Made by a program: the position numbers and the translations under genes. 64,000 bases of DNA from a virus: positions 1-64,000 of the IMG/VR virus record IMGVR_UViG_3300036900_000256. One strand, written 5' to 3'. Below are positions 1,145 through 51,177 of the stretch, piece after piece (position 1 is the first letter of the stretch; each line of letters begins with the position of its first letter). Under the pieces are notes generated by a model. The model had not been told where the DNA came from and did not search any database. It saw only the letters and a program-made list of their open reading frames with translations.

Positions 1145-1223
1145 GGGCACCCCCTGTGTGATCGAGGACAGTTTGCACGAGACCGGCATGGGCACCACTC
1201 ACCTGATTGGGCGTCTAGACGGT

Positions 1224-5594: not shown

Positions 5595-6674
5595 ATGAGC
5601 ACCGAACTGCAGGTCACCACCAGCCCGGACCTCGCCGTTGCGCAGGGTCGCGCTGTTGTGCACGACGCCGTCCGCGACCAGCTCGTCTACGAGATCGGCC
5701 GCGACCGGCTGGAGAAGCTCGACGCCGTGGTCGACCCGGCGACGTTCGACGCCGTGCTCCACTGGCTGTCCGGCGGTGAGCGGTCCTCCCTCGACACGAA
5801 GCGTCGGTACGCCGAAGACCTCACCGCGTTCGCCGAGTGGGCTGCCCTGCACCTCGGATGCCGCACGGTCTCGCTGCTGTCCGTCCTCACCTTCGAGACG
5901 ATCACCACCTGGACCATCTACGCCCGCTCGCAGGGGCTCGCCGCGCGCAGCCAACGCCGGATCCTGTCCGCCGTGTCCAGCCTGTTCAAGCACACCGCAC
6001 CCCGCGGGTGGTCCTCCCCCAACCCGGTGTCCTTCAGGTCCCACGCCCCGAAGGTCGGCACCTCGACCACCGGACGGCCTGCCGGGGCGACCCGCGTCCT
6101 GCCCGCCGACGAAGCAGTCCGCATGGGGAAGGCAGCGCGCACCGCAGAGGAGCGCCTCACGTTCGACCTGCTCTACCTGCAAGGGCTCCGCGAGTCCGAG
6201 GTGGTCAACCTCATGGCGGAGAACGTCGACCGCAACCAGTCCCCCGCGGTCCTGAACTTCCAGCGCAAGGGCGGCCAGTGGAAGCAACGCATCCTGCCCG
6301 CGGCGACGTTGCGGCACCTGGACGACCTCCTCGACGTCCGCGATGACGGGCCGGTGCTGATCGACCCGAAGACCGGCGGTGCCCGCAACCGCCACCAGTT
6401 GATCGACCTGACCCGCAGGCTCGCCCGCCGCGCCGAGATCCCCAACCCGCAGGGCGTCACCCCGCACGTTCTCCGCGCTGCGGCCATCACCGCGCTGCTC
6501 AACGGCGGCTCCCCGCTGCAGCAGGTCCAGAAGTGGGCGGACCACGCGCACGCCACCACCACCCAGGGGTACTGGGAGCGGTCGAACGGCCTGCAGCGCG
6601 ACGCCGAGCTGACGGGCAGCCTCGCGTCCATGCTGTCGGACGAAGACGGCCCGCTGCTCGGCGGCGGCGAGTGA
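5595..6674 (+). CDS. int: Tyrosine recombinase (integrase)
   Basis: Site-specific recombinase of the phage integrase family, 359 residues. An N-terminal SAM-like core-binding domain (about 50-150) is followed by the catalytic domain. Catalytic residues are visible: R199 in L-Q-G-L-R-E-S-E, K225 in the beta-hairpin Q-R-K-G-G, H291-x-x-R294 in H-V-L-R, H317/H319 in D-H-A-H-A, and nucleophile Y326 in G-Y-W. ATG 5595 is chosen because GGGAG lies upstream. It shares a 4-bp overlap with the endonuclease VII-like gene. It would integrate and excise the element; no att core could be identified. Confidence 0.88.
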   Translation: MSTELQVTTSPDLAVAQGRAVVHDAVRDQLVYEIGRDRLEKLDAVVDPATFDAVLHWLSGGERSSLDTKRRYAEDLTAFAEWAALHLGCRTVSLLSVLTFETITTWTIYARSQGLAARSQRRILSAVSSLFKHTAPRGWSSPNPVSFRSHAPKVGTSTTGRPAGATRVLPADEAVRMGKAARTAEERLTFDLLYLQGLRESEVVNLMAENVDRNQSPAVLNFQRKGGQWKQRILPAATLRHLDDLLDVRDDGPVLIDPKTGGARNRHQLIDLTRRLARRAEIPNPQGVTPHVLRAAAITALLNGGSPLQQVQKWADHAHATTTQGYWERSNGLQRDAELTGSLASMLSDEDGPLLGGGE

Positions 6675-15906: not shown

Positions 15907-17535
15907 ATGGCCGCCGTCCAGGACCCCGAAACCCCCGCCCCCTCCGAGGAGGAGCGCGGGGGTTTCGACCTGGACGCGTACCTCTGCCAGTTCGACCCCC
16001 GGATGCTGGAGATCCCCGAGTGCAGGCGCGAACTCTGCCGCTACGAGCCGCTCCTCTATGCGCTGCTCTATTTGCCGCACCACCTTCGTGGCAGCGAGGA
16101 CGGGGCGCGGATCACCCTCTCGGAGTTCCACATCGAACTCGCCGAGGCGGCGAAGAGGTGGGCGCTTCCTACCATGGAGCCGCGCGCTGATCGGGACGCG
16201 TACGTTTGCCCGCGCGAGGCGGGGAAATCAACTTGGTTGTTCCTGATCCTGCCGCTCTGGGCTGCTTCGTTCGGCCACAAGAAGTTCATCGGGGCATTCG
16301 CCGATGCCGGGGCGCAGGCGGAGATGCACCTGCTGTCGTTCAAGCAGGAGCTGGACAACAACCTGTTATTGCGTACGGATTTCCCCGACTTGTGCAGGCC
16401 GGGCCGCCGTCCGGGTGGCATGACCGAGTCCGACACGAAGCACATGTACATCGCTGGATCAGGGTTCGTATTCGCGGCGAAGGGTGTGGACGCGAAGGCG
16501 TTGGGCATGAAGGTCGGCGCGCGGCGTCCGGACCTGCTGATTCTCGACGACGTCGAGCCGGACGAGTCGAACTACAGCGACTACCAGAAGGACAAGCGGC
16601 TCGCGACGATCCAGAACGCGATCCTGCCGCTCAACATCCGGGCGCGCGTGGTCATCGCCGGGACGGTGACCATGCCCGGCTCGATCATCCACGACCTGGT
16701 CAAGACCGTGTCGATGCCAGGCGAGCCGCCAGCGCAGTGGGTGACCGACGAGAAGATCCGGGTGCATTACTACCGGGCGATCGTCACCGACGAGGAGACC
16801 GGGGCACGGCGGTCGTTGTGGCCGGAGAAGTGGCCGTTCGAGTTCCTGGTCAGCATCGAGCACACCCGCGGCTACAAGCTGAACTACGACAACAACCCCA
16901 TGGCCAGGGACGGCCAGTACTGGAACGAGACGGACTTCGTCCACATCGAGCTGCCCGCGCTGACCGCGATGCTGCTGTCCATCGACCCGGCGGTGAAGTC
17001 GAAGAAGACGTCGGACTTCACCGCGCTGGCCGTGATCGCCTACTCCGCGCACCACCGGCGGTGCATCGTCCTCGACGCCTGGGCAATCCGGGTACCGCCC
17101 GGCGCTGCACTGCGGAAACGGGTGCTCGGGATCCTGGAGCTGCACCCGGAAATCCGGGGCATCGTCGTGGAGGACAACCAAGGCGGCGAAGTGTGGGACG
17201 CGTCCGTGCTGCACAACATGCCCGTGAAGGTGCGGACGGTGGGCCAGCACGAACCCAAGGAAGTGAGGGCAGCCCGTCTTCTGGGGTTCTACCAGAACCG
17301 CCCCCGCCGCCTGCCCGGCAGACCGGCAAGCCCGATCGACGACCTGCCGTTCGTGGTGCATGCCCGCCCGCTACCCGCGCTTGAGGAGCAGATGGTCGGG
17401 TTCCCCAAGGCCGCGCACGACGACTTGGTCGACGCGGTGGGGACCGGTGTGGACATGTTCTTGAAGAAGCGGAAGCGCAACGGCGTGGAGCGGATCATGC
17501 CGGGCATGGACGATGAGGACGATCTAGCATCCTGA
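15907..17535 (+). CDS. terL: Terminase large subunit
   Basis: DNA-packaging motor of 542 residues. The ATPase has a Walker-A-like C-P-R-E-A-G-K-S-T (101-109) and Walker B L-L-I-L-D-D-V-E-P-D-E. The C-terminal RNase-H-like nuclease shows L-L-S-I-D-P-A, V-V-E-D-N-Q-G-G and A-H-D-D-L-V-D-A-V as its acidic triad regions. Followed by hairpins and then the portal gene. It translocates and cuts the phage genome into the procapsid. Confidence 0.9.
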   Translation: MAAVQDPETPAPSEEERGGFDLDAYLCQFDPRMLEIPECRRELCRYEPLLYALLYLPHHLRGSEDGARITLSEFHIELAEAAKRWALPTMEPRADRDAYVCPREAGKSTWLFLILPLWAASFGHKKFIGAFADAGAQAEMHLLSFKQELDNNLLLRTDFPDLCRPGRRPGGMTESDTKHMYIAGSGFVFAAKGVDAKALGMKVGARRPDLLILDDVEPDESNYSDYQKDKRLATIQNAILPLNIRARVVIAGTVTMPGSIIHDLVKTVSMPGEPPAQWVTDEKIRVHYYRAIVTDEETGARRSLWPEKWPFEFLVSIEHTRGYKLNYDNNPMARDGQYWNETDFVHIELPALTAMLLSIDPAVKSKKTSDFTALAVIAYSAHHRRCIVLDAWAIRVPPGAALRKRVLGILELHPEIRGIVVEDNQGGEVWDASVLHNMPVKVRTVGQHEPKEVRAARLLGFYQNRPRRLPGRPASPIDDLPFVVHARPLPALEEQMVGFPKAAHDDLVDAVGTGVDMFLKKRKRNGVERIMPGMDDEDDLAS

Positions 17536-17643: not shown

Positions 17644-19293
17644 GTGAATGCCCCACTGGCCATGCAGGAGTCCGTCGACAAGATCCTCGGCGTACTCGAA
17701 GCCGAACGCGCCACCAACCCGGACCTCCAGCACGGACTCGACGAGCTAGAGAACGCCGCAGAGGCCTACCACAAGGCCGAAAGGTACTTCGAGGACACCG
17801 TGCCCGAGGTGTTCGCCTCACTGCGCCTGCGTCGCGCGATGCAGGCCACCGGCACAGACTTCCGGATCAACTTCGCGAGGATCCCCGTCACCTCGGTGGT
17901 CAACCGGCTGGAGATTTCGTCTACCGCGTGCCCCACCGACGACGAAGCCACCGCGTGGATCCAGCAGCAGTGGGAGGGCAACGACCTCGACCTCGAAGCC
18001 CCCAACTTCCACCTGCGGGCGTGCGAGTACGGCGACTCCTACGCCATCGTGTGGCCACAGCCTGACGACGAGGACACCGAGGACACCGCCAGCGTCGAAG
18101 CCATGGGCGAACTGGATCGCGGATCGGAATCCACAGACCGTATCGACGTGGGGATCAGCTACAACAGTCCGCTGTGCTGCCGGATCATCTACGACCCCGA
18201 GCACACCCGACGCAAAGCGTTCGCGATCAAACGGTGGGACATTCCCGGCGGCGCGGTACGAGTCGACCTGTACTACGCGGACAGGTTGGAGCGGTACGTC
18301 ACGAAACCGAAGACGAACAACCCGGAGGCCGGGGACTTCTACCGGTTCCACGACGACGACATCGACGACGTGTGGCCTGCCCCGAACCCGTACGGCGAAG
18401 TCCCCGTGTTCCATTTCCGGAACGACCGCCCGTACGGCACCCCCGAGCACAAGGGGTTCTACGGCACCCAGAACGCGCTCAGGAAGCTGTTCATCAGCCA
18501 CATGGCCACGGTCGACTACCAAGCGTTCCAGCAGCGGTATGCGCTCACCGCAGGGGAGTCCGATACCAGCGAAGCGGCGGCTGGTGACGAGGACGAGTTC
18601 TCGTTCGGCGACGACGCGACCGGGGCCACCAAGACCACCGGCGGGTCGTCCCGATCCCAACTCAACGCCGGGCCCGGCGAGCTGTGGTGGATGCGTGGCG
18701 TCACCCAGGTCGGCGCCTTTCCCGAGGCCGACCCCGACGTGTTTATGAAACCGGCCAAGGACTACCTGCGGTTCGGCGCCCAAGCCACCGATACCCCGGT
18801 GCGCCTGTTCGACGTGCTGACTGGGCAGCAACCGTCGGCCGCGTCGCAGAAGGAAGCCGACGGCCCGCACACCAAGAAGGTCCGCAACCGTGCGCTGTCG
18901 TTCGGTGGGACCTGGCGGGGCATCTGGGAGTGCGCGCTACGCATGGCCGGGTTCCCCCGCCTGCGCGTGGTCGTCAACTGGGCGCCACCCGAGCACGTGT
19001 CCGGCCTGGAGGGCTGGCAGACCGTGCTCGCCCAGATCGAGGCCGGTGTGCCGCCGCGTGTCGCGCTGCACGAGGCGGGCTACACCAACGAGCAGATCGT
19101 GTCCTGGTTCGGTGAGGAGGACGACGACCTCCCGGCCCAGTTGGAGATGCTTAAGGAGATCGCGCTGGTGCTGCAGGCGCTCGGCGCGGCCAGCGCGTTC
19201 GACGTGATTGACGCCGTGCAGCTGCGCACCCTGATCGCCTCGCTCCTCGACCGTGCCACCAAGGTCGAGACCACGGATGAGGCTGACGAGTGA
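17644..19293 (+). CDS. Phage portal protein (SPP1 gp6-like)
   Basis: 549-residue portal protein forming the dodecameric vertex for DNA entry and tail joining. Typical features are the N-terminal helical stem region, F-R-I-N-F-A-R-I-P-V-T-S-V-V-N-R, D-E-A-T-A-W-I-Q-Q-Q-W, and V-P-V-F-H-F-R-N-D followed by N-A-L-R-K-L-F. An acidic, serine-rich linker (E-D-E-F-S-F-G-D-D) lies around residue 320. GTG start. The stop overlaps the MuF-like gene by 4 bp. Confidence 0.88.
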   Translation: MNAPLAMQESVDKILGVLEAERATNPDLQHGLDELENAAEAYHKAERYFEDTVPEVFASLRLRRAMQATGTDFRINFARIPVTSVVNRLEISSTACPTDDEATAWIQQQWEGNDLDLEAPNFHLRACEYGDSYAIVWPQPDDEDTEDTASVEAMGELDRGSESTDRIDVGISYNSPLCCRIIYDPEHTRRKAFAIKRWDIPGGAVRVDLYYADRLERYVTKPKTNNPEAGDFYRFHDDDIDDVWPAPNPYGEVPVFHFRNDRPYGTPEHKGFYGTQNALRKLFISHMATVDYQAFQQRYALTAGESDTSEAAAGDEDEFSFGDDATGATKTTGGSSRSQLNAGPGELWWMRGVTQVGAFPEADPDVFMKPAKDYLRFGAQATDTPVRLFDVLTGQQPSAASQKEADGPHTKKVRNRALSFGGTWRGIWECALRMAGFPRLRVVVNWAPPEHVSGLEGWQTVLAQIEAGVPPRVALHEAGYTNEQIVSWFGEEDDDLPAQLEMLKEIALVLQALGAASAFDVIDAVQLRTLIASLLDRATKVETTDEADE

Positions 19294-21322: not shown

Positions 21323-22021
21323 ATGGGCGACACCAGCCCGTCCACCGTTGAAGACCAAGCCCCACCCAAGGACGAACTACACGGGGCTGTGATCCGCGAC
21401 CAGAACAATGTGCCGTCGCTGGTTTCGGACGGCGGCGAGATCATCGTCGGCACGCGGGCCGAGTTGCGCGCGGCGTTCGGGGGCTTGGTCGTCACCACCG
21501 CCCGCCTGCCCGACGACACCGAGCCGGTGCTGAGCATCCGAAAGTGGATGTCGCCGGACGAACTGGATCTCATCGTGCAGCGTCTCGACGACAAGACCGA
21601 GGGCACACCGTGGCCACCCGCACCGCTGGTGGCTGGCTTCGAACCCGAACTGGTGGAGCACGCCCGGCGTGAGCTGGCCCTGTTGGGCGAGAACGACGAG
21701 TGGTTCGTGGAGTCGATCGTCGCTGCGATGCGCGGGTTCCTCGGGTGCGGCCACTCCGGCGGCTCCGCACCGATCGCCATCGACTATCTGACGCGCCTGC
21801 TGTCGCGTGAAGCGTTGACCTCGCTCACCAACGACCCTGCCGAGTGGGTCGATCGTTCCGAGATGAGTGGCTACCCGCTGTGGCAGAACGCCCGTGACTC
21901 GCGCGCGATGTCTGAGGACGGCGGGAAGACGTACTGGATGGTCGACCAGGTGCCGGAGGGCGAGACGTCTGCATCGGCCACCCGGTACGTGTCCGCCGAG
22001 CCGGTCACCGGAGGCGTGTGA
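21323..22021 (+). CDS. Hypothetical protein, 232 aa
   Basis: Unrecognised protein: V-I-R-D-Q-N-N-V-P-S-L-V-S-D-G-G-E, a central helical region (E-L-V-E-H-A-R-R-E-L-A-L-L) and a C-terminal W-M-V-D-Q-V. No membrane helix or signal. First larger gene of the accessory insert between scaffold and capsid, with a stop overlapping the next start. No function assigned. Confidence 0.55.
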   Translation: MGDTSPSTVEDQAPPKDELHGAVIRDQNNVPSLVSDGGEIIVGTRAELRAAFGGLVVTTARLPDDTEPVLSIRKWMSPDELDLIVQRLDDKTEGTPWPPAPLVAGFEPELVEHARRELALLGENDEWFVESIVAAMRGFLGCGHSGGSAPIAIDYLTRLLSREALTSLTNDPAEWVDRSEMSGYPLWQNARDSRAMSEDGGKTYWMVDQVPEGETSASATRYVSAEPVTGGV

Positions 22022-25901: not shown

Positions 25902-26951
25902 GTGGGCACCTCTCTGCTCGACACCCAGATTTTCGACGACTCCGTCCCCGAGCACGACACCGGCGACGTCCTGGGCCACAACCCCGACGGCTCCCCCATC
26001 CCACTGCAGGGTGGTTCCGCCCGAAACACGTACGAGGCGTGGATCTGGGAAGAGTTCGGCGCCGACGTCATCACCAAGGTCAAGCAGATGTCGGCCGTCG
26101 AGACGTACGCCCAGCGCGTCCCGATGAAGACCCAGACCCGGTCCACGCCGCGGTCCGGTGGTGTCGGCATCGAGATCATCGCCAAGGGTGGTGCCTACGG
26201 CGAGGACACCAACACCAACGACGACGTCATCCTCTCCGCGCAGAAGTTCGGCAAGGCCGTACGGATCGCCGAAGAGGACATCGACGACTCCCTCGCGGAC
26301 ATCCTCAACACGAAGCTGTCCGACTGGGCCACCGCCTACGCGAAGGGCCTCGACAACGCCTGCCTGGCGGTCACCGCGGCGAAGGCGACCACGGGCTGCA
26401 AGTTCGACTCCCTGTACTACCAGTTGTCGCAGACCAACACCCCCACCGGGTACACGGCGAACACGAACATCACGAAGTCCGGCAGCGCGGGCACCACCTA
26501 CGACGGCTTGTCCACCACGGCCGGGCTGGTGGAGACCGGGGACTTCTTCGACGAGGGCAGCGCGCTGTGGATCTGCCACCCCGCGTTCAAGAAGAAGCTG
26601 CGCGGCATCAAGGACACCGCCGGGCGCCCCATCTTCATGGAGTCCAGCAACGGCACCGCCGGTGGTGCGCAGAACGTCCCGGACACGATCATGGGCTACC
26701 CGGTCAAGTGGTCCCTCGGCGCGCGCACCAGCGCCACCCCGACCGCCACCCCGACCGGCAACCCGCTGGCGATCTTCTGCATCCCGCAGTTCCTGCTGCT
26801 GGGTGTCCGCTCCGGTCCCGAGTCGGTGTTCATCGACGGCCGCTCCGGTGTCAGCGCGCTGACCGACGAGTCGATCCTCAAGATGCGTGCCCGCCGCGGT
26901 TTCAACATCGGCATCGAGCACGCGTTCGCGGTCTACGAGGACAACAGCTGA
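25902..26951 (+). CDS. Major capsid protein (HK97 fold)
   Basis: 349-residue capsid subunit. HK97-type features are the N-terminal arm, a long spine-helix/E-loop region (about 40-110: T-Y-A-Q-R-V-P-M-K-T), V-R-I-A-E-E-D-I-D-D, a central A-domain and the C-terminal P-D-T-I-M-G-Y-P-V, then R-A-R-R-G-F-N-I-G-I-E. There is no N-terminal prohead protease region, consistent with a separate scaffold. GTG start. It is bracketed by hairpins. Confidence 0.88.
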   Translation: MGTSLLDTQIFDDSVPEHDTGDVLGHNPDGSPIPLQGGSARNTYEAWIWEEFGADVITKVKQMSAVETYAQRVPMKTQTRSTPRSGGVGIEIIAKGGAYGEDTNTNDDVILSAQKFGKAVRIAEEDIDDSLADILNTKLSDWATAYAKGLDNACLAVTAAKATTGCKFDSLYYQLSQTNTPTGYTANTNITKSGSAGTTYDGLSTTAGLVETGDFFDEGSALWICHPAFKKKLRGIKDTAGRPIFMESSNGTAGGAQNVPDTIMGYPVKWSLGARTSATPTATPTGNPLAIFCIPQFLLLGVRSGPESVFIDGRSGVSALTDESILKMRARRGFNIGIEHAFAVYEDNS

Positions 26952-31015: not shown

Positions 31016-31549
31016 ATGGCCAGCAAGTCAGTCAACCGCGAGCGGCATGTAAGCCGCGCGCCCGTCGCGCGCTGCTTCGGCTGCTTCGAGTTCGGTGTCG
31101 AAGGTGCCGAGATGCGTGTTGCGCACCTTCGCCTTCCAGCGGCCGGAAGCTGCCCGACTGACTCCCCGGTACATCGAAGTGAGCGCCGCGCCAGTCGAGT
31201 GCACCGTGTGAACCCGGTTCTGTGCCTGGCTCCTGGCCGGAATCACGCGCAAGTTCGCCCTCGTGTTGTTGAGCGGGTTGCGGTCGATGTGATCTGCCGT
31301 GGACGGCGCACCGTGTGCAAGGCACAGCAGCTGGCGAGCCATCAGCACTGTCTTCCGAGCTGGCCGTGGTGTGCACCGGGCCGCATAGCCCTCATCGGTC
31401 AGGAACCACCGATGTTGGTTCAGCGCCTCGAAATCGACCGCATCAACCTCGGTGTAGGCCACAACCTCGCCATGCCAACGGCCACCTCGCCACAGCGGAA
31501 TCTGCATGAACCCACGGTACCGCTTGGGATCGGGGTGTTTCAGCCATGA
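31016..31549 (+). other. Open frame antisense to the HNH gene, coupled to tape measure
   Basis: AGGAGG (31002-31007) lies 8 nt before ATG 31016. The frame stays open for 177 codons across the opposite-strand HNH gene and stops by ATGA overlap with the tape-measure ATG at 31546, which itself has no ribosome-binding site. The encoded sequence resembles nothing. It may be a passenger frame that lets ribosomes reach the tape measure start. Confidence 0.35.
31028..31507 (-). CDS. HNH endonuclease with AP2 domain (homing type)
   Basis: 159-residue nuclease. An HNH core D-H-I-D-R-N-P-L-N-N at 72-81, followed by N-L-R (85-87), is joined to a C-terminal AP2 DNA-binding domain at about 112-155 (Y-R-G-V-S-R, G-R-W-K-A-K-V, L-G-T-F-D-T-E-L-E-A-A). 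Free-standing HNH-AP2 proteins are mobile homing endonucleases. It lies antisense between the gpG/gpT and tape-measure genes, the only minus-strand gene in the structural operon, so it looks like an insertion. Confidence 0.85.
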   Translation of the reverse strand: MQIPLWRGGRWHGEVVAYTEVDAVDFEALNQHRWFLTDEGYAARCTPRPARKTVLMARQLLCLAHGAPSTADHIDRNPLNNTRANLRVIPARSQAQNRVHTVHSTGAALTSMYRGVSRAASGRWKAKVRNTHLGTFDTELEAAEAARDGRAAYMPLAVD

Positions 31550-34500
31550 GCGAGGGCTTCAAGATCGCCTCAGCGTTTGTCGAGGTGACGCTGAAGGACA
31601 ACACCGACGCGGACATGGACAAGCTCCGTGAGCGCATCCGCGCGGCGAGACCGTTCGAGCTGCCCACCACCTACAAGGCGCCGGAGGGGCCGCCGCCGAA
31701 ACCGCGCCGCCAGGACCCGGTCGAGATCCCGACCAAGCTGAAGGACCCGGTCGACGAAGCCTTCAGGCAGCAACTCAACAACGACCTCCGCGCGGCCGCC
31801 CGTCAGCTCGCGAAGCTCCCGATCAACGCCGACACCGAGAACCTGCGCTCCGAGGTGGCCGCTCGTGTCCGGGAGATCAGCGACACCCTGAAGGCCGACA
31901 TCCCCGTCGACCTGGCCGACGCGACCGCGTGGCGGGAGAAGGTCCGCGCCGAGGTCGACGCGGTCTCCGACCGGGTCCGGTCGCAGATCGAGGACAAACC
32001 GCCCGCGCAGGTGCCGACGAAGCTGTCGGACCCCGTGAACGAGGCGTGGAAAGCACAGGTCAACGCCGATTTGCGTGCGGCGGCGCGGGACCTGGCGAAA
32101 CTCCCGGTCGACGCGGACACAGAGCACCTGCGACGCCAGGTCGCCGAGTCCATCCGGCAGATCGAGCAGACCCTCAAGGCCGACATCCCGGTGGACGCCG
32201 GTGACGCGTCGGCGATGCGGGCCAAGGTCCGGGCCGAGGTCGCGGCGATCTCCCGCGCGGTGAAGGTCGACGTCCCGGTGGACGTCGACACCTCCTCGCT
32301 GGGGCGGGCGCGCGGGCAGATCGTGTCGGCGGCGAACGACATCGAGTCCCGTGTCGGCGGGTCCGCGAGCCGGGCCGGGGCGCACCTGGGCACGATCGGC
32401 CGGTACGCGGCGATCGGATTGGGCGGTATCCCCCCGCTGGCCGCGGCGGGCGCTGGTGCGATCGCCGCCATCGGCCCGGCGGCGATCGGGGCGGCGGGGG
32501 CGATCGCGACCATCGGGTTCGCGTTCGGCGGCGTCATGGGCGCACTCAAGGGGTACACGGCGGACCAGAACGCGGCGGGTGCCGCGTCGGCGGGGTCGGC
32601 GGCGACGCAGCTGTCCAACGCCACGGCGATCCGGGACGCCACACGCGGGATCGCAGAGGCCGAGAAGGACAAGGCCCGCGCCTATCAGGACGCCGCCGAC
32701 CAGATCACCGGGGCCGAGCGGCGGGTCGCGGACGCCCAGCAGACCGAACGGCAGGCGCAGCTCGCCCTGACCGACGCCCGACGAGCCGCCGCCGACCAAC
32801 TGGAGGACCTGAACCGGCGACTGGAGGACACCGCCCTCAACGAGGAAGGTGCCGCGCTGGCCGCTGAAGCCGCCCAGGAGCGGCTGCGGAAGGTCATCGC
32901 GAACCCGCTGTCGACGGACCTGGAGAAGCGGCAGGCCGACTACGAGGTGCGGCAGGCCCTGGACCGGCTGGCGGACCTCAAGGCCGCTGACGAGCGGATG
33001 CGCCGCGACGTCGAGGAAGCCAACGCGCGCGGTGTCGAGGGTGACCGGCAGGTCGTGTCCGCGAAGGAACGCGTCTCCCAGGCCACCCAGGGTGTGACCG
33101 ACGCGCAGACCGAGTTGGGGCGGGCGCACGCGGACGCGGCGGAGAAGATGGCGGACGCGGACGAGCGGGTCGCCCGCGCGGTGGAGCAGTTGGCCGATGT
33201 GCAGGCGCAGCAGGCTGCCTCGGCGGCGGGGGCGGCTGGTGCGACGTCGAAGTACGCGGAAGCGATGGCCAAGCTCTCGCCCGCCGCACGGGAGTTCGTC
33301 GAGCAGCTGATCTCCATGAAGCCGTTGGTGGACGACCTGTCCAAGACGGCGCAGACGGCAATGCTGCCCGGTTTCACGCAGATGCTCAAGGACTCCACGG
33401 TCCTGTTCCCGATCTTCAAGCAGGGCATCGCGGACATCGGCGGGGTGCTCGGCGACACCGCACGGCAGGCCGGGGCGCTGTTCCAGTCCCCGGTGTTCCA
33501 GCAGCAGTTGGGCCAGAACTTCACCAACGCCCTACCGGTGATCCGGGCGGCGTCGGAGGGGTTCCTCGAACTCTTCCGGATGATCATCGAGTTGGGGTCC
33601 AAGGCCGGGCCGGTCATGGACGCCATCGCAGGCGGCATCACCGCCCTCGTCGGCGGCCTGGGTGACTTCTTCCAGGCCATCGGCCCCGCGATGGGCCCCA
33701 TCGGGGAGATCCTCACCGCCGTGTTCCAGGCGGTGGCGTCGCTGCTCGGGCCGCTGGGCCAACTGGTCGCGATGATCGTCACCTCGTTGGCGCCCGCGTT
33801 CACCGCCCTCGCCCCGGTCGTCGCCCTGTTCGCCCAGGTGGTGCTCGCCCTGCTCAAACCGGTCATCGAGGCGCTCGGCCCGATGCTGGAAACCGTGGTC
33901 GGCGCACTGAACGGTGTACTCGAAGCACTGCTGCCGGTCATGCCCGCCGTCGGCGAGTTCTTCGCCGCCCTGGGCCCGCTGATCGGGTTGCTGGCCCAGT
34001 TCGTCGGCCAACTCCTTGAGGGCCTGGCGCCGGTGCTGCAGACGGTCGCCGAGGCGTTGACCCCGGTCGTGGAGGTCCTCACCGATTCCCTCGGCCCGGT
34101 GCTGCCGCTGATCTCGGAGGCGTTCGGCGAGTGGTGGAAGGCGTTGTCGCTGCTCATCGAGCCGATCACGACGCTGATCACGACGTTGCTGCCGCCGTTG
34201 TCGGAGATGCTGACCCGTTACCTGGAGGCGTTGCAGCCGATCTGGCCCGAGATCCAGAAACTGGCGGAGGCCATCTCGGGGGCGCTGACGCAGGCATTGT
34301 TGGACTTGGCGCCGAAACTGCCGGAGATGATCGACAGCTTCATGAAGCTGTTCGAGGCGGTTGCCCCGCTGATGCCGGATCTGATCAAGTTGGCGACCCT
34401 GTTCGCCGAGACGGTGCTCCCGGCGGTTCTGGGGTTGATCGTCGGGGTGCTGTCGTTGGACGCCACGATCATGGGTGGTCTCGCGGACGCGATCCGGTGG

Positions 34501-35235
34501 TGTGTCGATCACATCGGACCGGCGTGGGAGTTCATCAAGAACACAGTGGCCTTTCAGATCGACCAGATCAAAATGGTGATCAACTGGTTTTCCGAGTTGC
34601 CGGGGATGATCAGCGACTGGTTCGGGCGCGCGAAGGACGGCGCAGTCGACAAGTGGAACCAGCTCGTCGACTGGGCGCGCGGTATCCCCCGAATGATCAC
34701 TGACGCGCTCGGGAACCTCGGCAACACCCTGTGGGACGCGGGCACGGACCTCGTGCGCGGCCTGTGGGGCGGCCTGCAGTCCATGGGTGGCTGGCTCACC
34801 AGCCAGGTGTGGTCCTGGATCAAACGGGTCATCCCCGGCCCGATCAAGGACGCGCTCGGCATCAGCTCGCCATCGAAGGTCGCCGAAGAACTGTCCGCCG
34901 AGGTGCCCGCGGGCCTGGTCGTCGGCATGGACGGCGGCACCCAACAGGTGCAGGCGGCGTCGCTGCGGCTGGCCAGCGGCATCCGGTCCGGCCTCGCGGG
35001 CGGGCTCGGCGGAGACGGCGCGGCACTCCCGCTCGGACTCGCCCCTGGAGGCGCAGTCGACGTACCCGGTCAGCAGCCGTTGGGCAGCGCCGGTCTCACC
35101 GTGCAGGGCGACATCGTCGTGCACCTGCACGGGATCGTCGACCTCACCGACCCCACCTCCATGAACGCCGCGGCCCGCGAGCTGGTGGAGCGGATCCGCG
35201 ACGCGATCCGCGTAGTCGAACGGAGCACGACGTGA
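31546..35235 (+). CDS. Tape measure protein
   Basis: 1229-residue tail-length ruler. N-terminal residues 61-141 and 156-236 are a tandem duplication (each with I/V-P-T-K-L-x-D-P-V, L-R-A-A-A-R-x-L-A-K-L-P, and T-L-K-A-D-I-P-V-D). A hydrophobic, glycine-rich segment follows (about 285-330), then long coiled coils to about 590 and repeated hydrophobic helices (L-L-G-P-L-G-Q-L-V-A, A-L-L-P-V-M-P) to about 1000. The C-terminus has S-S-P-S-K-V-A-E-E. It is the longest gene in the window, in the expected slot. Confidence 0.9.
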   Translation: MSEGFKIASAFVEVTLKDNTDADMDKLRERIRAARPFELPTTYKAPEGPPPKPRRQDPVEIPTKLKDPVDEAFRQQLNNDLRAAARQLAKLPINADTENLRSEVAARVREISDTLKADIPVDLADATAWREKVRAEVDAVSDRVRSQIEDKPPAQVPTKLSDPVNEAWKAQVNADLRAAARDLAKLPVDADTEHLRRQVAESIRQIEQTLKADIPVDAGDASAMRAKVRAEVAAISRAVKVDVPVDVDTSSLGRARGQIVSAANDIESRVGGSASRAGAHLGTIGRYAAIGLGGIPPLAAAGAGAIAAIGPAAIGAAGAIATIGFAFGGVMGALKGYTADQNAAGAASAGSAATQLSNATAIRDATRGIAEAEKDKARAYQDAADQITGAERRVADAQQTERQAQLALTDARRAAADQLEDLNRRLEDTALNEEGAALAAEAAQERLRKVIANPLSTDLEKRQADYEVRQALDRLADLKAADERMRRDVEEANARGVEGDRQVVSAKERVSQATQGVTDAQTELGRAHADAAEKMADADERVARAVEQLADVQAQQAASAAGAAGATSKYAEAMAKLSPAAREFVEQLISMKPLVDDLSKTAQTAMLPGFTQMLKDSTVLFPIFKQGIADIGGVLGDTARQAGALFQSPVFQQQLGQNFTNALPVIRAASEGFLELFRMIIELGSKAGPVMDAIAGGITALVGGLGDFFQAIGPAMGPIGEILTAVFQAVASLLGPLGQLVAMIVTSLAPAFTALAPVVALFAQVVLALLKPVIEALGPMLETVVGALNGVLEALLPVMPAVGEFFAALGPLIGLLAQFVGQLLEGLAPVLQTVAEALTPVVEVLTDSLGPVLPLISEAFGEWWKALSLLIEPITTLITTLLPPLSEMLTRYLEALQPIWPEIQKLAEAISGALTQALLDLAPKLPEMIDSFMKLFEAVAPLMPDLIKLATLFAETVLPAVLGLIVGVLSLDATIMGGLADAIRWCVDHIGPAWEFIKNTVAFQIDQIKMVINWFSELPGMISDWFGRAKDGAVDKWNQLVDWARGIPRMITDALGNLGNTLWDAGTDLVRGLWGGLQSMGGWLTSQVWSWIKRVIPGPIKDALGISSPSKVAEELSAEVPAGLVVGMDGGTQQVQAASLRLASGIRSGLAGGLGGDGAALPLGLAPGGAVDVPGQQPLGSAGLTVQGDIVVHLHGIVDLTDPTSMNAAARELVERIRDAIRVVERSTT

Positions 35236-42450: not shown

Positions 42451-43443
42451 ATGATCTTCGGTGTCGACGTCAGCAACCACCAAACGCACTTCGACTTCGC
42501 CGCAGCCGCGCGAGAGGGGTTCGACTTCGCGTTCGTCAAGTGCAGCCAGAACGACAACTTCCGAGACGGCCGGTTCGTCCAGCACGCCAACGCTGCCCGC
42601 GCGGCCGGACTCCTCGTGGCCGCCTACCACTACCAGGGCACCGCACCCGTCGCCCGCCAGCTGTCCACCATCAAGGCCATGGCCGGGACGGACATCCCGA
42701 TCATCCTCGACGTCGAGGACGGGTCCGGCGGGATCGACATCACCCGCGCCCTGGTAGCCGCACTGCGCGCCGAGGGCTACCAGGTGCCGCTCACGTACTT
42801 ACCGCGCTGGTACTGGTCGGGGCATCTCGGCTCACCGAACCTGTCCGGGCTGCCGCCGCTGTGGGTGTCCTGGTACCCGGACTACACGGTGCGGCGCAAG
42901 GAGTCCGGGATCGACACAGTGCCGAACTCCGTGTGGAACGGCTACGGCGGCCTCGACGTCGCCGTCGTGCAGTTCACCAGCTCGGGCGCGGTGGCGGACT
43001 ACCCCGGCGGCTCGATCGACCTCAACGCGTTCGCGGGCACCCGCGCGCAACTCGTAACCCTCCTGGAAGGAGAAGACGACGTGAACCTCAGCGACCCGCT
43101 ACCCACGTACGACGACAACAGCACCACCGTGGAGGAGACCCTCTTCGGCGCGCATTACCACGCCAAGCAGGCCGATCAGCGAGCCGCACGAATCGAGGTC
43201 CAACTCGCCGCGCTAGGCGGCGCACTGTCCGACGCCGAGACGCACATCCTCGCCGCGAACAGGGAATCCGACGAGAACAGCACGGCAGCCGTGCTCGCGG
43301 CCATCCGCGCCCAACCGACCGGCGGCCAGGTCGACGTCCCCGCGCTCGCCGCCGCACTCCGCGTCGGCCTCGGCGACGAGATCGCCGACGACCTGGCCGA
43401 CGAACTCGGCCAGCGATTGACCGGTACCCAGGAGGAAATCTGA
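42451..43443 (+). CDS. Endolysin, GH25 lysozyme
   Basis: 330-residue muramidase. The GH25 domain covers about 1-205, with D6 in G-V-D-V-S-N-H-Q and the D87-V-E89-D catalytic pair. The rest (about 205-330) is an acidic, helical region without a recognisable wall-binding repeat. No signal peptide, so it needs the holin encoded next (ATG inside its TGA). It cleaves peptidoglycan glycan chains at lysis. Confidence 0.9.
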   Translation: MIFGVDVSNHQTHFDFAAAAREGFDFAFVKCSQNDNFRDGRFVQHANAARAAGLLVAAYHYQGTAPVARQLSTIKAMAGTDIPIILDVEDGSGGIDITRALVAALRAEGYQVPLTYLPRWYWSGHLGSPNLSGLPPLWVSWYPDYTVRRKESGIDTVPNSVWNGYGGLDVAVVQFTSSGAVADYPGGSIDLNAFAGTRAQLVTLLEGEDDVNLSDPLPTYDDNSTTVEETLFGAHYHAKQADQRAARIEVQLAALGGALSDAETHILAANRESDENSTAAVLAAIRAQPTGGQVDVPALAAALRVGLGDEIADDLADELGQRLTGTQEEI

Positions 43444-43814
43444 TGGGCAAGCTCTTCGGGCGTGAGCCCGCGTACTTCATGGCGTTGATCAGCTCGGCGA
43501 TCGCGCTGGCCACCGGCCTCGGACTGGACCTGTCGATCGACCAGCAAGGCGCGCTCAACGCGTTCGTCGCCGCGGTGTTCGCCGCGGTCACCGCGTGGAA
43601 GCTGGCCCGCAACGGGTCAGTCGCCGCGCTGGTCGGTGTCGGCAAGGCGGCGATCGCAATCGCCTTGGCCTTCGGCTTCCACCTGTCCCCGGAGTTGCAG
43701 TCCAGCACCATGCTGTTCGTTGAGCTGTTGCTGACCGGGCTCCTGGTCTGGCCGAACGTCACCGCGCCGATCAGGGAAGACGGCGTCGTGCTCGGATCCC
43801 GCCCGACCAACTGA
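43443..43814 (+). CDS. Holin-like membrane protein
   Basis: 123 residues with three to four hydrophobic segments (about 11-30, 37-54, 57-77, 88-104) and short loops, directly coupled to the endolysin by a TGATG overlap. AGGAGG-like sequence precedes it. This profile and location fit an actinophage holin that permeabilises the membrane. Confidence 0.75.
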   Translation: MGKLFGREPAYFMALISSAIALATGLGLDLSIDQQGALNAFVAAVFAAVTAWKLARNGSVAALVGVGKAAIAIALAFGFHLSPELQSSTMLFVELLLTGLLVWPNVTAPIREDGVVLGSRPTN

Positions 43815-45751: not shown

Positions 45752-46168
45752 ATGACCAGCGGAACCAAGACCACCGACGCGCACCTCGTCACCGACATCG
45801 TCATGCTCGCCACCCACAACAACACCCAACACGTGCTACTCATCCAACGCGGATGGCCACTCCCCGGCGGGTACGTCGACCAAGGCGAGACGTTCGAACA
45901 GGCCGCACGCCGTGAACTCGCCGAGGAAACCGGGCTCGTCGCTGCCGACCTCACCCGGATCGGAATCTACGACGAGCCGGACCGCGACCCGCGCGGCCGT
46001 GTGGTCAGCGTCGCCTACGTCGCCCAACTCGACCACCTGCCTGCCGTGGTCGCCGGGGACGACGCCCGTGTGGCCCGCTGGGTCCCAGTCGCCCAGCTCC
46101 GCGGGCTCGACCTGGCGTTCGACCACGAACAGGTCCTGGTCGATGGGCTCCTCACCCCCCGCTCCTGA
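45752..46168 (+). CDS. NUDIX hydrolase
   Basis: 138-residue NUDIX enzyme with a complete box: G40-x5-E46-x7-R54-E55-x-x-E58-E59-x-G61. The downstream R-D-P-R-G-R-V-V-S-V-A-Y segment resembles ADP-ribose pyrophosphatase-type members. ATG 45752 has AGGAG upstream, favoured over an ATG/GTG at 45722. It might degrade nucleotide signals or ADP-ribose in the infected cell; substrate not determinable from sequence. Confidence 0.8.
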   Translation: MTSGTKTTDAHLVTDIVMLATHNNTQHVLLIQRGWPLPGGYVDQGETFEQAARRELAEETGLVAADLTRIGIYDEPDRDPRGRVVSVAYVAQLDHLPAVVAGDDARVARWVPVAQLRGLDLAFDHEQVLVDGLLTPRS

Positions 46169-46680: not shown

Positions 46681-46815
46681 ATGACGACCGACTGGTCCGA
46701 CATGACCCCCGAAGAGCGTGGCAACGCGTTTCGCGCGCACCACATCGACGGCATGCCTTACCCGTCCGAGACGGACGTCGACGAGGAACTCGAACAGCTC
46801 TTCGACGACAACTGA
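46681..46815 (+). CDS. Hypothetical peptide, 44 aa
   Basis: ATG 46681 with AAGGAG 6-7 nt upstream. Acidic peptide (P-S-E-T-D-V-D-E-E-L-E-Q-L-F-D-D-N) with a W-S-D-M-T-P-E-E-R start. Unknown. Confidence 0.4.
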   Translation: MTTDWSDMTPEERGNAFRAHHIDGMPYPSETDVDEELEQLFDDN

Positions 46816-46846
46816 CCCGACCATCACCTGACTGGAAGGTCCCACC

Positions 46847-46915
46847 ATGCTCCCGGGCACGCACACCCTGGGCAACACGGCCCGCACCTCCGCGATGGCG
46901 GGGAGCGCGCCGTGA
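46847..46915 (+). CDS. Leader-like peptide, 22 aa
   Basis: ATG 46847 after GGAAGG. The stop overlaps GTG 46912 of the next gene, so it may serve translational coupling. No other feature. Confidence 0.3.
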   Translation: MLPGTHTLGNTARTSAMAGSAP

Positions 46916-47193
46916 CCGGCCTGACGATCCTCGCCCGCCGCCTGCTGTGGTCGTGCTCCTACCACGCCCACCTGGCCGCCCTCGCGGTCCTCGACACGGT
47001 GCGTTACCTGCTCACCGCCGCCACCCTGCTCACCCACCGGGCACATACCGCGGTCGCCGAGCACGGCGGAACCGTCGCCGACGTCCTGGACGACGGCCGC
47101 GCCTGGGCCGACCGGGCCGAGTTCGACCGCGCCAAGTACCTGCGGCTGGTCGACCAGCTGCTCAACGGAATCGACCTGAAGGAGAACCCGTGA
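46912..47193 (+). CDS. Small Spd-like protein, 93 aa
   Basis: The N-terminal half is hydrophobic (A-A-L-A-V-L-D-T-V-R-Y-L-L-T-A-A-T-L-L) and the C-terminal half helical and charged. Immediately upstream of the translocase operon, where Streptomyces-type plasmids and AICEs carry small spread/transfer genes. The call is by context. Confidence 0.45.
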   Translation: MTGLTILARRLLWSCSYHAHLAALAVLDTVRYLLTAATLLTHRAHTAVAEHGGTVADVLDDGRAWADRAEFDRAKYLRLVDQLLNGIDLKENP

Positions 47194-47552
47194 CCACCGC
47201 CGCCGAGAGGGTGTCGGAGCTCGCCGACGCGGAGCTGTTCACCTCGACCGCCCTGCACGACTTCGTGATCAAGGTCCGGGACCTGTGCCGGGACGTGGCC
47301 TACATCCTGCAGTTCCAGGCCGACACGCTGCAGGCGTCATTGGCGACCCTGCCCGTCGTGGGCTCGAAGTACGGGTCGCTGGCCTCCAGGGTCCGCGCCC
47401 GTTCGGTCGCGTGGTGCATGCGGTCCGCGGCCGAGGCGATCCAGCACGCCGGGAAGTTGACCGTGAAGGCGTGGTCCCTGTTCCAGAAGTACTACGTCGC
47501 CGAACAACAGAAACCGGCCGCCGGGAAGAAGCAGTTCCAAGTCAACTCCTGA
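47190..47552 (+). CDS. Hypothetical protein, 120 aa, in transfer module
   Basis: GTG 47190 overlapping the upstream stop. Helical, with F-V-I-K-V-R-D-L-C-R-D-V-A-Y-I-L-Q-F and a basic C-terminus. Directly precedes the TraB-like gene. Function unknown, presumably linked to transfer. Confidence 0.5.
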   Translation: MTTAAERVSELADAELFTSTALHDFVIKVRDLCRDVAYILQFQADTLQASLATLPVVGSKYGSLASRVRARSVAWCMRSAAEAIQHAGKLTVKAWSLFQKYYVAEQQKPAAGKKQFQVNS

Positions 47553-47569
47553 TCCGGAGGGAAGCAGCA

Positions 47570-49540
47570 GTGACGAAGAAGCATCTGGCGAAGGCCGCGC
47601 AGGAGCGGGCGGTGGCCCAGGCCACCAGTCGCGGTTCCGTGCTGGTGCGCCCGACGATGGCGCTGGTCGGCGAGCTGGGGCTGTCGGTGGCGCTGTGGTG
47701 CGCCGCGTCGCCGGAGTCGCTGCCGTGGATGACACCCGCCCTGTCGCTGTCCACGGCGGCGCTGACCGCGCTGGTGTGGCACACGGGCCGGGACCAGACC
47801 CCGGTCGGACGCATCCTCGGGGTGGGGTCCACCGTGCTGACCGGGGCGCACCTGGTCACCGCGACCATCCTGGGCCCGTTCACGTCGCCGCTGTGGGGGG
47901 TGTGGTGCTGGTTGGGCGGCACGACCGCGGCGGCGTGGATGTACCGGCTGTGGATCGCCCGTGACGACGCCACTGTCGAGGGCGCCAAGCGGCGCGTGTC
48001 GATGTGGGACGAGGCGGCGGAAAGGGCCGGTGGGGCGTTGGAGGGCTCCCGGTTCCGGGCGAAGGAGGCCACCGCCGACCGGATGGCCGGGCCGCTGGAG
48101 TTGGAACCGGGGCAGACGGTGAAGGACGCGCAGATGAGTCTGGCCGCGTTGGAGAGCGTGCTGGGCCTGCCGCCCGGTGGTGCCCGCCTGACCCGCGACC
48201 CGGGCCATGCCGCCCGCGGCGAGCTGACGTTGGTGCGGTCGAACGTGCTGAAGGAGGACCTCGGCTACCGGGGTCCGTCGGCGCTGGGCGGTACCCCGGC
48301 CGCGCCGTACCGGGTGGGTCGTTACGAGCACGGCCGGGACGCGGTGCTGCCGTTGCAGGTCCCCGGCCGCGGCGAGGTGCATCTGATCATCCAGGGGATG
48401 ACCGGCAGCGGGAAGACCAAGGGCGCGCACCAGCTGTTCGCCGAGGAATTCACCCGCGTCGACACGTACACGATCTACGTGGACACGGTGAAGGGCGCCC
48501 AGTCGTTGGGCCCGCTGGCGCGGGGGATCCGGTGGGCGATGCGGACCGAGGCCGAGGCGCACGCGCTGATGAAGGTGCTCAAGGCGCGGGTCATCCCGGT
48601 GCTGGCCCAATACCTCGGGTCGCGTGGGCTGGAGAACTGGGAGCCGGGCTGCGGTTATCCGCGTATCCGGATCCACGTAGAGGAGGGCGCCGGGCTGTTC
48701 CTGGGCAACGACGCGTTCATCCGGGTCATGGAGCGTGCCCGGTCGGTCGGTGTGCAGGTCACGCTGTCCGCGCAGCGGTTCTCCTACACCACTCTGCCGG
48801 TGGCGGCGCGCTCCCAGTTCGGCGCGGTGCTGGCCTTCGGGGTCGCCGAGGTCGAGGACGCGAAGTTCGCCATGCCGGACAAGGTGTTCGAGGCCGGTGC
48901 GGACCCGTCGCAGTGGGGCAACAACATGCCCGGCCTCGCCTACCTGGTCGCCCCCGGTGTGGAGGAGAACGACTATGTGGTGCCGCTGCGGGTGGAGAAG
49001 ATCGCGCGTGCCGAGTTGGAGGTTCTGGCCGAGTACGCCCGCGTGCACGGTGCCGAGTTGCCGTCGTTCGTCGCGGAGGCGTTCGGCGAGTTGTACACGT
49101 CGCGGGTTCCGGTCGAGCAGATGCTCGCCGAGGGCGCGGTCGTGTTCGCGGCCGACGAGGACGAGGACTGGGACGACGAGGAGGACGAGGAGGACGAGGA
49201 CATGCGGGAACCCCCGTGGCAGCCGTCGGAAGCCGACCCGGAGCCGGACGTGCAGCCGGACATCGACGACCCGATCACCGCGGTGCCGGAGATGCAGTTG
49301 GGCGACCGGCCGGTGAAGCTGCCGCCGGTGCAGGCGCGGGAGATGTTCGAGGCGCGGTTGCGCAGTCTGCAGGAGTCGGGCGCGTCGGCGGTGACGGTGA
49401 AGGATCTGACGCCGGTGGCGTTGGAGGCGGGGATGACCGCGGCGTGGTTGTACAAGTTGCTGCGGGAGCGGGTCGACTCGGGTCATCTGGAGCGCACAGA
49501 CGCGGGGTGGCGGTTCGCCCGTGCCCTCACCAACGCATGA
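47570..49540 (+). CDS. TraB/FtsK-like DNA translocase
   Basis: 656 residues. Three or four N-terminal membrane segments (within 30-125) are followed by an FtsK/SpoIIIE-type ATPase with Walker A G-M-T-G-S-G-K-T (276-283), a Walker-B-like I-R-I-H-V-E-E-G and T-L-S-A-Q-R-F, then an acidic linker (D/E run near 520-545). The C-terminal winged helix (V-K-D-L-T-P-V-A-L-E-A-G-M-T) resembles the gamma-like DNA-reading domain. This is the architecture of actinomycete conjugation proteins that move double-stranded DNA between hyphae. GGAGG precedes GTG 47570. A repeat array follows the stop directly. Confidence 0.85.
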   Translation: MTKKHLAKAAQERAVAQATSRGSVLVRPTMALVGELGLSVALWCAASPESLPWMTPALSLSTAALTALVWHTGRDQTPVGRILGVGSTVLTGAHLVTATILGPFTSPLWGVWCWLGGTTAAAWMYRLWIARDDATVEGAKRRVSMWDEAAERAGGALEGSRFRAKEATADRMAGPLELEPGQTVKDAQMSLAALESVLGLPPGGARLTRDPGHAARGELTLVRSNVLKEDLGYRGPSALGGTPAAPYRVGRYEHGRDAVLPLQVPGRGEVHLIIQGMTGSGKTKGAHQLFAEEFTRVDTYTIYVDTVKGAQSLGPLARGIRWAMRTEAEAHALMKVLKARVIPVLAQYLGSRGLENWEPGCGYPRIRIHVEEGAGLFLGNDAFIRVMERARSVGVQVTLSAQRFSYTTLPVAARSQFGAVLAFGVAEVEDAKFAMPDKVFEAGADPSQWGNNMPGLAYLVAPGVEENDYVVPLRVEKIARAELEVLAEYARVHGAELPSFVAEAFGELYTSRVPVEQMLAEGAVVFAADEDEDWDDEEDEEDEDMREPPWQPSEADPEPDVQPDIDDPITAVPEMQLGDRPVKLPPVQAREMFEARLRSLQESGASAVTVKDLTPVALEAGMTAAWLYKLLRERVDSGHLERTDAGWRFARALTNA

Positions 49541-49564
49541 TCAACTCTGAGTCGGTGGTCGGCG

Positions 49565-49739
49565 CCGTGACAACCCGCAGACCTGTCACGGGCGCCGAGA
49601 CGGACACAGAGTCCCTGCTCAGGGCCGTGACACCGCCGTGACACCGCCCGTGACAGCCGACGTGACAGCCCGTGAACGGCCGTGACACCGCCGTGAATCG
49701 GCCCGTGACAGCCGTGACAACCCCGTGAATCCCGTGACA
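49565..49739. repeat. Phased CCGTGACA array (possible clt/TRS or iteron site)
   Basis: CCGTGACA occurs exactly at 49565, 49625, 49636, 49648, 49680, 49703, 49712 and 49732, and inverted at 49584-49591. Degenerate copies (CCGTGA or CGTGACA) fill 49660, 49670, 49691 and 49723. From 49625 the unit spacing is 9-12 bp, one helical turn. It is non-coding and starts 24 bp after the translocase gene. In plasmids of the pSVH1 type, TraB binds 8-bp repeats in a locus placed like this. Confidence 0.75.
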
Positions 49740-49779
49740 GCCGCCCAGTCACGGCCGTGACCAGCAGAAAGGCAACCCC

Positions 49780-51177
49780 GTGACCACCGCCCCCACCGCG
49801 CCCGAAGGCGGCTGGACGAGCCGACGCGCCCGCCACCGGGCGGAGCGCGCGCACGCCATGAACCTCCACACCGACGCCCGCAAGAAGCGCGCCGCCCAGA
49901 CCGCGACCGAACGCGCCGCCGGGCACGCCGAGGACCCGATGAGCTGGCCGCTGCGGATCCTCGCCACCGCGGTCGCCCTGGTCGTACTCGCCGTCGCGGT
50001 CGTGATCGGCGTCGTCGTCATCGGCGCCCAGATCGGGTTCTACGAGACCAACCTCACCGTCAAGACCATCAGCTTCGCCGCGCTCGGCATCGACACCCCG
50101 CTCGACCTGCCGACCTTCACCCCGCTCGCGACCGAAGGCGTCGTGTGGGCGACCACCCTGCTCGCGGTGGTGATGGTGCTGCTCAACCGGACCGCGACCC
50201 TGTGGACGCGGTCGATGTGGTTTTTCGCGTCGATCGCCGCGTTCGTGAACACGTGGCACGCGGTATTCGAGGAAAAGGATCTGTTCGGCGGTGTGCTCCG
50301 GGGCGGGCTTTCCCTCGCGGGTCCTTTCCTGGTGCATCTGTTCATTTTGTGGTGCCGTCATCTGCGGACCGGCCGGACGCTGGCGCAGGCGCGTATCGAC
50401 ACGGCTGTCCGCTGGGACGGAATCCGTTCGGTCCTATTGGCGCTGGGGCTTCTGCTCGGCCGTCATGTGGCGCACCCCGTCATCGCGGCCCGCGCGTTGG
50501 GTTACCGGCTCGGCGTGGGCAACTGGTCCTACACCGACGCGTGGGCGGCCGCGTCGGTCGGTTACCGGCGTCGCGTGCAGGCCCGGCTCGACGGGGCGGA
50601 CACCAACCGGCCCGGTCGCCTCCGGAGTGCGCGACCGGAGGCGACCGGCAGCGGCGACACCGACGACCGACCGACCGACCCGGCCGCCGTGGTCGAGGAC
50701 CCGCCTCCGCCGGTCGGCCTGCGCCCGGCGTTCACCGACGAGGAGGCCGAGTTGCTGGTCGCCCGGCTCATGGACCCGACCTTGACGGTCGCCGCGTTCG
50801 ATGACCAGCCCGAACCGGCGACCGGAACAGGCGACCGAGAGGCGACCGAGAGGCGACCGGACGCGACCGACGCAGCGACCGGACCGGCGACCGGCACGCG
50901 ACCGAAGGCGACCGAACGCACGACCGACACCAGGGCGGGAGGCGACCGGTCGCGACCGGTCGGCCGCGACCGGAGGCGACCGACGACACGACCGGACACG
51001 ACCGGAGTCGACGTCTCGGACCTACTCCCGGTCGCCCGCGAGGTGGCGACCGAACTGGGCGACCGGCTCAGTCGGGACGCGCTCTTGGAGGGGCTGCGGT
51101 TGCGGGGCCTGTCGGTCGGTGGTCTGCGTCGGGCCGCGATCTACAACGCCGTGAAGGACGAACGGGGAAAGGCATGA
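49780..51177 (+). CDS. DUF2637/Spd-like membrane protein carrying an internal repeat array
   Basis: 465 residues. A basic N-terminus precedes four membrane segments (about 58-80, 112-130, 148-168, 170-190), as in DUF2637/SpdB-type proteins that accompany TraB in plasmid spread. From about 280 the protein is a low-complexity T/R/D/P/A linker, and the end is a helical domain (R-E-V-A-T-E-L-G-D-R-L-S-R-D-A-L) like a small winged helix. The linker DNA (50818-50982) is an iterated GCGACCG array, described separately. GTG start. Confidence 0.7.
   Translation: MTTAPTAPEGGWTSRRARHRAERAHAMNLHTDARKKRAAQTATERAAGHAEDPMSWPLRILATAVALVVLAVAVVIGVVVIGAQIGFYETNLTVKTISFAALGIDTPLDLPTFTPLATEGVVWATTLLAVVMVLLNRTATLWTRSMWFFASIAAFVNTWHAVFEEKDLFGGVLRGGLSLAGPFLVHLFILWCRHLRTGRTLAQARIDTAVRWDGIRSVLLALGLLLGRHVAHPVIAARALGYRLGVGNWSYTDAWAAASVGYRRRVQARLDGADTNRPGRLRSARPEATGSGDTDDRPTDPAAVVEDPPPPVGLRPAFTDEEAELLVARLMDPTLTVAAFDDQPEPATGTGDREATERRPDATDAATGPATGTRPKATERTTDTRAGGDRSRPVGRDRRRPTTRPDTTGVDVSDLLPVAREVATELGDRLSRDALLEGLRLRGLSVGGLRRAAIYNAVKDERGKA
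50818..50982. repeat. Phased GCGACCG array inside a coding sequence
   Basis: Thirteen exact GCGACCG copies at 50818, 50831, 50842, 50853, 50863, 50875, 50887, 50898, 50908, 50942, 50952, 50966 and 50976, mostly 10-14 bp apart; further copies at 50631, 50641, 51046 and 51059. They fall in all three codon phases, so they read as A-T, G-D-R, R-D-R or R-P. The repetition is therefore a property of the DNA, not of a peptide repeat. Confidence 0.75.

Follow-up and report, generated by a model that had tools for sequence, protein, structure and literature searches.

Phage-plasmids that join transfer genes to phage genes are already known from Streptomyces, namely pZL12/phiZL12 (NC_013420) and the pair pCQ3 (NC_013449) and pCQ4 (NC_019307). 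The study of pZL12 reportedly described plaques and virions. As related in later papers, pZL12 has a transfer locus as well as a plasmid/lytic phage cycle (Zhong 2010, via PMC3583192, PMC5431353), its transfer requires a tra gene and two neighbouring genes (via PMC3583192, PMC5431353), and PhiNon1 of Nonomuraea, which has been likened to pZL12, occurs both integrated and as a circle (PMC5431353). In the complete, circular 85-kb plasmids pCQ3 and pCQ4, traA-traB lies directly upstream of phage genes, coding for terminase, portal, capsid and tail proteins in pCQ4 and for capsid and tail proteins in pCQ3.

In the small conjugative plasmids pWTY27 (14 kb) and pJV1/pSN22 (pSN22 being an 11-kb plasmid without annotated phage genes), the gene of an FtsK-like Tra protein adjoins a clt locus made of short repeats. 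The clt of pWTY27 consists of TGACACC repeats within 159 bp next to the tra gene; the Tra protein binds them, and deletion of the locus lowers transfer about 1000-fold (PMC3583192). The clt of pJV1 has the motif CCGCACA(C/G)(C/G) (PMC3583192), and TraB of pSVH1 uses helix 3 of the winged helix to recognise repeats of 8 bp (PMC3583192, PMC4170104).

Here we analyse the first 64 kb (bases 1–64000, hereafter the window) of a 74,452-bp IMG/VR virus record, together with the piece carrying the remainder of the record past the window (L002). Genes were called with a codon-usage script of our own rather than with a standard caller. An earlier note on this DNA had called a unit unusual that can both make virions and move double-stranded DNA between hyphae; the combination of a transfer module with a tailed-phage genome is not unprecedented, since pZL12 and pCQ3/pCQ4 precede it. 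What is new is the form that it takes here: a phage whose terminase is of the Yara/Zuko lineage, and which bears an integrase and an attP, carries a divergent TraB and a clear clt-like array, with the module in a position of its own.

Phage gene set and putative integration site

A GC-rich hairpin of 31 identical nucleotides occurs at both ends of the record (38/40 bases if extended; positions 10–40 of the window and 14422–14452 of L002). Identical ends suggest a circular or circularly permuted genome, and the hairpin may be a bidirectional terminator where a circle was broken during assembly. The host is probably of actinomycete type. The record opens with the gene of an XRE-DUF5753 regulator of the Sco1979 type, a type common on Streptomyces chromosomes (293–1189, minus strand).

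Head, tail and lysis genes span 15.9–43.8 kb (Table 1), and a minor tail protein also matches its phage family strongly. The early operon, on the minus strand past 51.3 kb, contains RuvC-like, YqaJ and RecT genes, so that the transfer module sits between these two blocks, as the earlier note had it. Farther on come a repressor-type HTH gene (71410–71928) and a tyrosine integrase gene (72516–73706), and the 30 bases just past the latter are identical at 28 positions to the 3′ end of a Streptomyces tRNA-Asn. No complete tRNA gene was found in the record, and we take this segment to be an attP-like core. Judging from these structural, lysis, integrase, repressor-type HTH and attP features, the record outside the module is that of a temperate tailed phage (Caudoviricetes). 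The second, XerC/D-like recombinase is encoded far from the attP-like core and could be a dimer resolvase. No plasmid replication or partition gene (ParA/ParB, Rep) was seen among the genes annotated here, which make up part of the gene set; an HTH_36 protein (65996–66682) gave a weak match only. An AICE combines Int and Tra with a replication gene of its own type (RepSA, RepAM or Prim-Pol); Int and Tra are present in the record, and searches for RepAM, run without a positive control, and for Prim-Pol, with working controls, were empty.

Several other genes deserve mention. Within the head-gene region, the protein encoded at 21323–22021 (plus strand) matches Tad3, an inhibitor of type I Thoeris (PF25185, E 9.5e-30), so this is likely an anti-defence gene. 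The gene of a T4 Rnl1-like RNA ligase adjoins that of a polynucleotide kinase-phosphatase (2535–4600, plus strand), the two being a likely tRNA/RNA repair pair directed against anticodon nucleases. On the minus strand lie a phosphoadenosine phosphosulfate reductase-like gene (58354–59403) and a WhiB-type regulator gene (PF02467, 52319–52528), the latter 58% identical to a WhiB gene found just upstream of traB in linear Streptomyces plasmids.

Table 1. Features of the window discussed in the text
Feature	Position	Strand	Basis and remarks
Second tyrosine recombinase, XerC/D-like	5595..6674	+	PF00589 E 3e-17; XerD 1.6e-22
Terminase large subunit	15907..17535	+	phrog_38 E 2e-64; 54% to Streptomyces phage Yara
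Portal protein	17644..19293	+	phrog_104 E 5e-59
Major head protein	25902..26951	+	phrog_10 E 2e-22
Tail tape measure protein	31546..35235	+	phrog_4197 E 6e-84
Endolysin	42451..43443	+	phrog_3084 E 4e-44
Holin	43443..43814	+	phrog_9752 E 3e-23; directly after endolysin
Nudix hydrolase, candidate Pif-like conjugal immunity gene	45752..46168	+	NCBIfam Nudix E to 3e-15
Small tra-operon gene	46681..46815	+	Gene call; no NCBIfam match
Small tra-operon protein with a single hydrophobic stretch	46912..47193	+	Gene call; no family match
TraA-like plasmid transfer protein	47190..47552	+	NF041213; phrog_38590
TraB, FtsK-type dsDNA translocase, 656 aa	47570..49540	+	NF041214, tree, winged-helix model
clt-like array	49560..49765	+ (13 units), 2 inverted	CGTGA(C/A) units directly after traB
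Multi-pass membrane protein	49780..51177	+	Hydrophobic segments; helices in weak model

A divergent TraB and its neighbours

The 656-residue open reading frame is present exactly as the earlier note had claimed, and its description as a membrane-anchored FtsK-like ATPase with a C-terminal winged helix is borne out. The protein matches the NCBIfam profile NF041214 (plasmid_TraB) over residues 33–652 with 370 bits (E 2e-110), short of the equivalog cut-off of 800. Aligned with plasmid TraBs, the sequence shows the Walker A motif GMTGSGKT and a Walker-B-like RIHVEEGAG; it also contains two hydrophobic stretches (residues 24–42 and 82–100). A structure model gives the C-terminus the topology of a winged helix (helices 586–602, 610–619 and 624–636, strands 640–643 and 646–649) with a local pLDDT of about 62–84; the whole model is poor, and neither this model nor that of the membrane protein encoded after the array was good enough for fold searches.

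In tblastn searches, this TraB matched 51 plasmid records, mostly of Streptomyces, with identities of about 25–32% among the matches listed, and none of 50,697 phage records; its identity to other TraBs is about 26–34%. It also matches PHROG 24831 (2e-94), labelled function unknown in PHROGs, which means that the family has been met in some (pro)virus before, though unnamed. In a 22-row tree, the split between TraB and host FtsK was supported by 100/100 and 200/200 bootstrap trees, with the window protein on the TraB side, its exact place among the TraBs not being fixed. The ATPase thus does not group with the host septal FtsK/SpoIIIE proteins; such a grouping is what the earlier note had named as counting against its reading, and this check came out in favour of the reading. 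Profile and tree together identify the open reading frame, at the level of homology, as a TraB of full length but divergent sequence, TraB being the protein that on its own translocates dsDNA in the transfer of Streptomyces plasmids.

Three small genes lie upstream of traB, and the last of them codes for a TraA-like protein that matches NF041213 (plasmid_TraA; E 1.2e-10, 41.7 bits, below the cut-off of 80) and phrog_38590 (5.9e-7). The latter family is also labelled function unknown, so that phage annotation based on PHROGs misses both TraA and TraB. Downstream, the membrane protein announced by the earlier note is there, with a low-complexity linker followed by a helical C-terminus, but the DUF2637 label was not confirmed: no significant match to a DUF2637-type profile or to any other family was obtained. 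In Thermobispora, the gene after traB codes for a protein built in the same way, and DUF2637 proteins follow traB in linear plasmids; the window protein is a positional counterpart of the Spd/DUF2637 proteins and resembles them in architecture and position only. Finally, the Nudix protein encoded ahead of the tra operon is 45–50% identical to those encoded downstream of traB in Amycolatopsis, pFRL2, NBC_00122 and S. virginiae plasmids. As Pif of pSAM2 is a NUDIX protein that blocks redundant transfer (PMC3218068), an immunity role is, by analogy, a reasonable guess for this gene.

A clt-like repeat array downstream of traB

The TraA–TraB homology supports the earlier assignment of the module to the transfer sets of Streptomyces-type plasmids, and a repeat array, which had been missed, adds a putative cis-acting partner. 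The 239 bp gap between traB and the next gene holds all the CGTGA(C/A) units counted in Table 1, with 11 of them spaced at 9–12 bp, about one helical turn, between 49626 and 49733. The motif can be written CCGTGAC(A), mostly in one direction. CCGTGAC occurs nine times in the 239 bp, whereas no 7-mer exceeded five occurrences in 5000 Markov-shuffled versions of this stretch; GTGACA likewise occurs nine times, against 0.06 expected per 250 bp. By its sequence, the locus has the short direct repeats near traB that characterize clt. A second dense cluster, made of GGCGACCG repeats at 50.6–51.0 kb, was rejected as a clt because it lies inside the low-complexity coding linker.

Arrays directly 3′ of traB are present in most of the other TraB loci and plasmids that we checked, with GTGACACC in pNon2 and Thermobispora, CTGACA in pCQ3, pCQ4 and Amycolatopsis, CGCACA in pSN22 and GCGCACC in linear plasmids. 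Across these loci, the array motif varies together with the presumed recognition helix of TraB. The window array belongs to the type seen in pNon2 and Thermobispora, and the presumed recognition helix of the window TraB is closer to theirs than to the helices of the CTGACA group. The arrangement recalls pWTY27, whose clt occupies the same position and has a related motif, and pJV1/pSN22, although the motif of the latter, CGCACA, differs from the GTGACA seen here. The array is thus a likely DNA loading site (clt) for TraB, and by analogy we infer that the window TraB binds it. Note that a scan of viral contigs with the clt pattern returned at least 80 loci, with no TraB among the 80 checked.

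Comparison with related elements

Like the window, pZL12 combines a plasmid transfer locus with a tailed-phage gene set, but its FtsK-like Tra (gp71) gave no TraB match and it carries ParA/ParB. pCQ3 and pCQ4 share with the window TGACA-type repeats after traB and a tyrosine recombinase. In contrast, their terminase and capsid genes are unrelated or very distant, their TraBs belong to another subgroup (about 31% identical to the window TraB) and their tra genes lie upstream of the packaging/capsid genes rather than between lysis and early genes. On the phage side, the terminases of the Streptomyces phages Yara, Dryad and Zuko are 44–54% identical to that of the window. Isolated relatives such as Yara lack the tra module: Yara gave no TraB match and has no annotated integrase in the part covered (18–67.5 kb). 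The phage plasmid phiM2, considered for its related terminase, is also without TraB. A 145-kb plasmid of Thermobispora bispora encodes TraB, a phage major capsid protein and a prohead protease, and from these genes it is possibly another plasmid-phage.

Two relatives carry TraB together with phage genes homologous to those of the window, in one record or on one contig: IMGVR_UViG_2865671049_000004 (78,758 bp), in which no tyrosine integrase was found, and contig 32 (54,890 bp) of Streptomyces spinosisporus 7R016. In both, the terminase, capsid, tail tube, tape measure and minor tail genes are homologous to those of the window, with identities of 53% for the terminase, 54–59% for the capsid and 57–65% for the tail tube. 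Their TraBs, however, are only 28–30% identical to the window TraB, are encoded upstream of the terminase and fall on the pCQ-type side of the tree rather than in the subgroup of the window. At least two relatives therefore pair the same capsid and tail genes with a TraB of another subgroup at another place, which means that the association recurs. The simplest reading of these sequences is that the module has been taken up more than once, or replaced, in one lineage of tailed phages.

No close relative was found, so that a single assembled record underlies the layout. Neither the window TraB nor a TraB alignment (A2), used in scans that detect close relatives only, returned a viral relative. 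In searches run without a positive control, 393 genomes from the genus to which a Streptomyces centre genome belongs gave no match to the window TraB at E 1e-80, and 395 genomes of its class gave none at E 1e-75; the att core had no exact match in 395 genomes.

Proposed explanation and alternatives

On the genes and their arrangement, the homologies, the repeats and the recurrence in relatives, we consider it probable (roughly 0.7) that the record is an actinomycete temperate tailed phage that has acquired a Streptomyces-type one-protein conjugation module and would move both by TraB/clt and in virions. TraA, TraB and the accessory membrane protein would be produced from the prophage or excised circle, and TraB would use its winged helix to bind the array just downstream of traB, with its CCGTGACA-type repeats. 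Having formed a ring there, TraB would translocate the element as double-stranded DNA into the neighbouring hypha or septal compartment, after which the integrase would insert it at tRNA-Asn. Upon induction, the element would be packaged into virions by its own terminase.

The module might serve to spread or maintain the phage DNA within its own mycelium, through the septa, rather than between strains. Such a role agrees with the presence of an accessory membrane protein gene after traB and with the spread of Streptomyces plasmids in the mycelium via spd genes, SpdB2 of pSVH1 interacting with TraB (PMC4170104). However, the array matches the pWTY27 locus that is required for mating transfer (PMC3583192), and the Nudix gene is suggestive of an immunity that acts between donors; we therefore regard a purely intramycelial role as unlikely, while noting that the two roles are not mutually exclusive. 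It is quite improbable that the tra genes are a fragment of a separate ICE or plasmid lodged in a prophage, a passenger so far outside phage biology, even though they form a self-contained plus-strand operon between two minus-strand blocks and other phages of the same structural lineage do without them. No boundary of a nested ICE was found: the region 45.7–51.2 kb is flanked neither by an integrase nor by a direct repeat longer than 13 nt, and the sole integrase beside an att-like site lies at 72.5–73.8 kb, not near 45 kb where the earlier note had placed a possible limit. Prim-Pol was not found in searches whose controls worked, and two relatives have a TraB as well, in a different location, which is more than a single accident would give.

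Two further readings carry very little weight. One might suspect a chimeric assembly that joins a plasmid to a phage, as we have one record from a virus collection and found no near-identical second copy; it is very improbable given that base composition shows no break at the module and that the same combination occurs in the complete circular pCQ3/pCQ4, in IMGVR_UViG_2865671049_000004 and in S. spinosisporus. Weak matches of the ATPase to phrog_1358 (FtsK/SpoIIIE, E 0.0014) and to PADLOC mad8 could point to a phage FtsK-like moron that acts on host chromosome segregation or superinfection rather than in transfer, but the full-length TraB match, the TraA partner, the clt-like array and the split from host FtsK make this reading scarcely credible.

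Phage infection and conjugation are usually viewed as separate transfer routes. The genome described here may, from its gene content, spread by both, in virions and by TraB-mediated transfer, and the recurrence of the pairing with a different TraB suggests that it is selected for in mycelial hosts, where intramycelial spread pays. A broader picture, in which a chromosomally integrating temperate phage also moves as naked dsDNA by TraB/clt, its integrated clt could make the host a donor of chromosomal DNA, and its lineage took up the module more than once, is more tentative, and we would put it at clearly less than even odds. If both routes are used, transfer by contact would evade resistance based on phage receptors, virions would remove the need for contact, and a clt carried in the chromosome could mobilise host genes.
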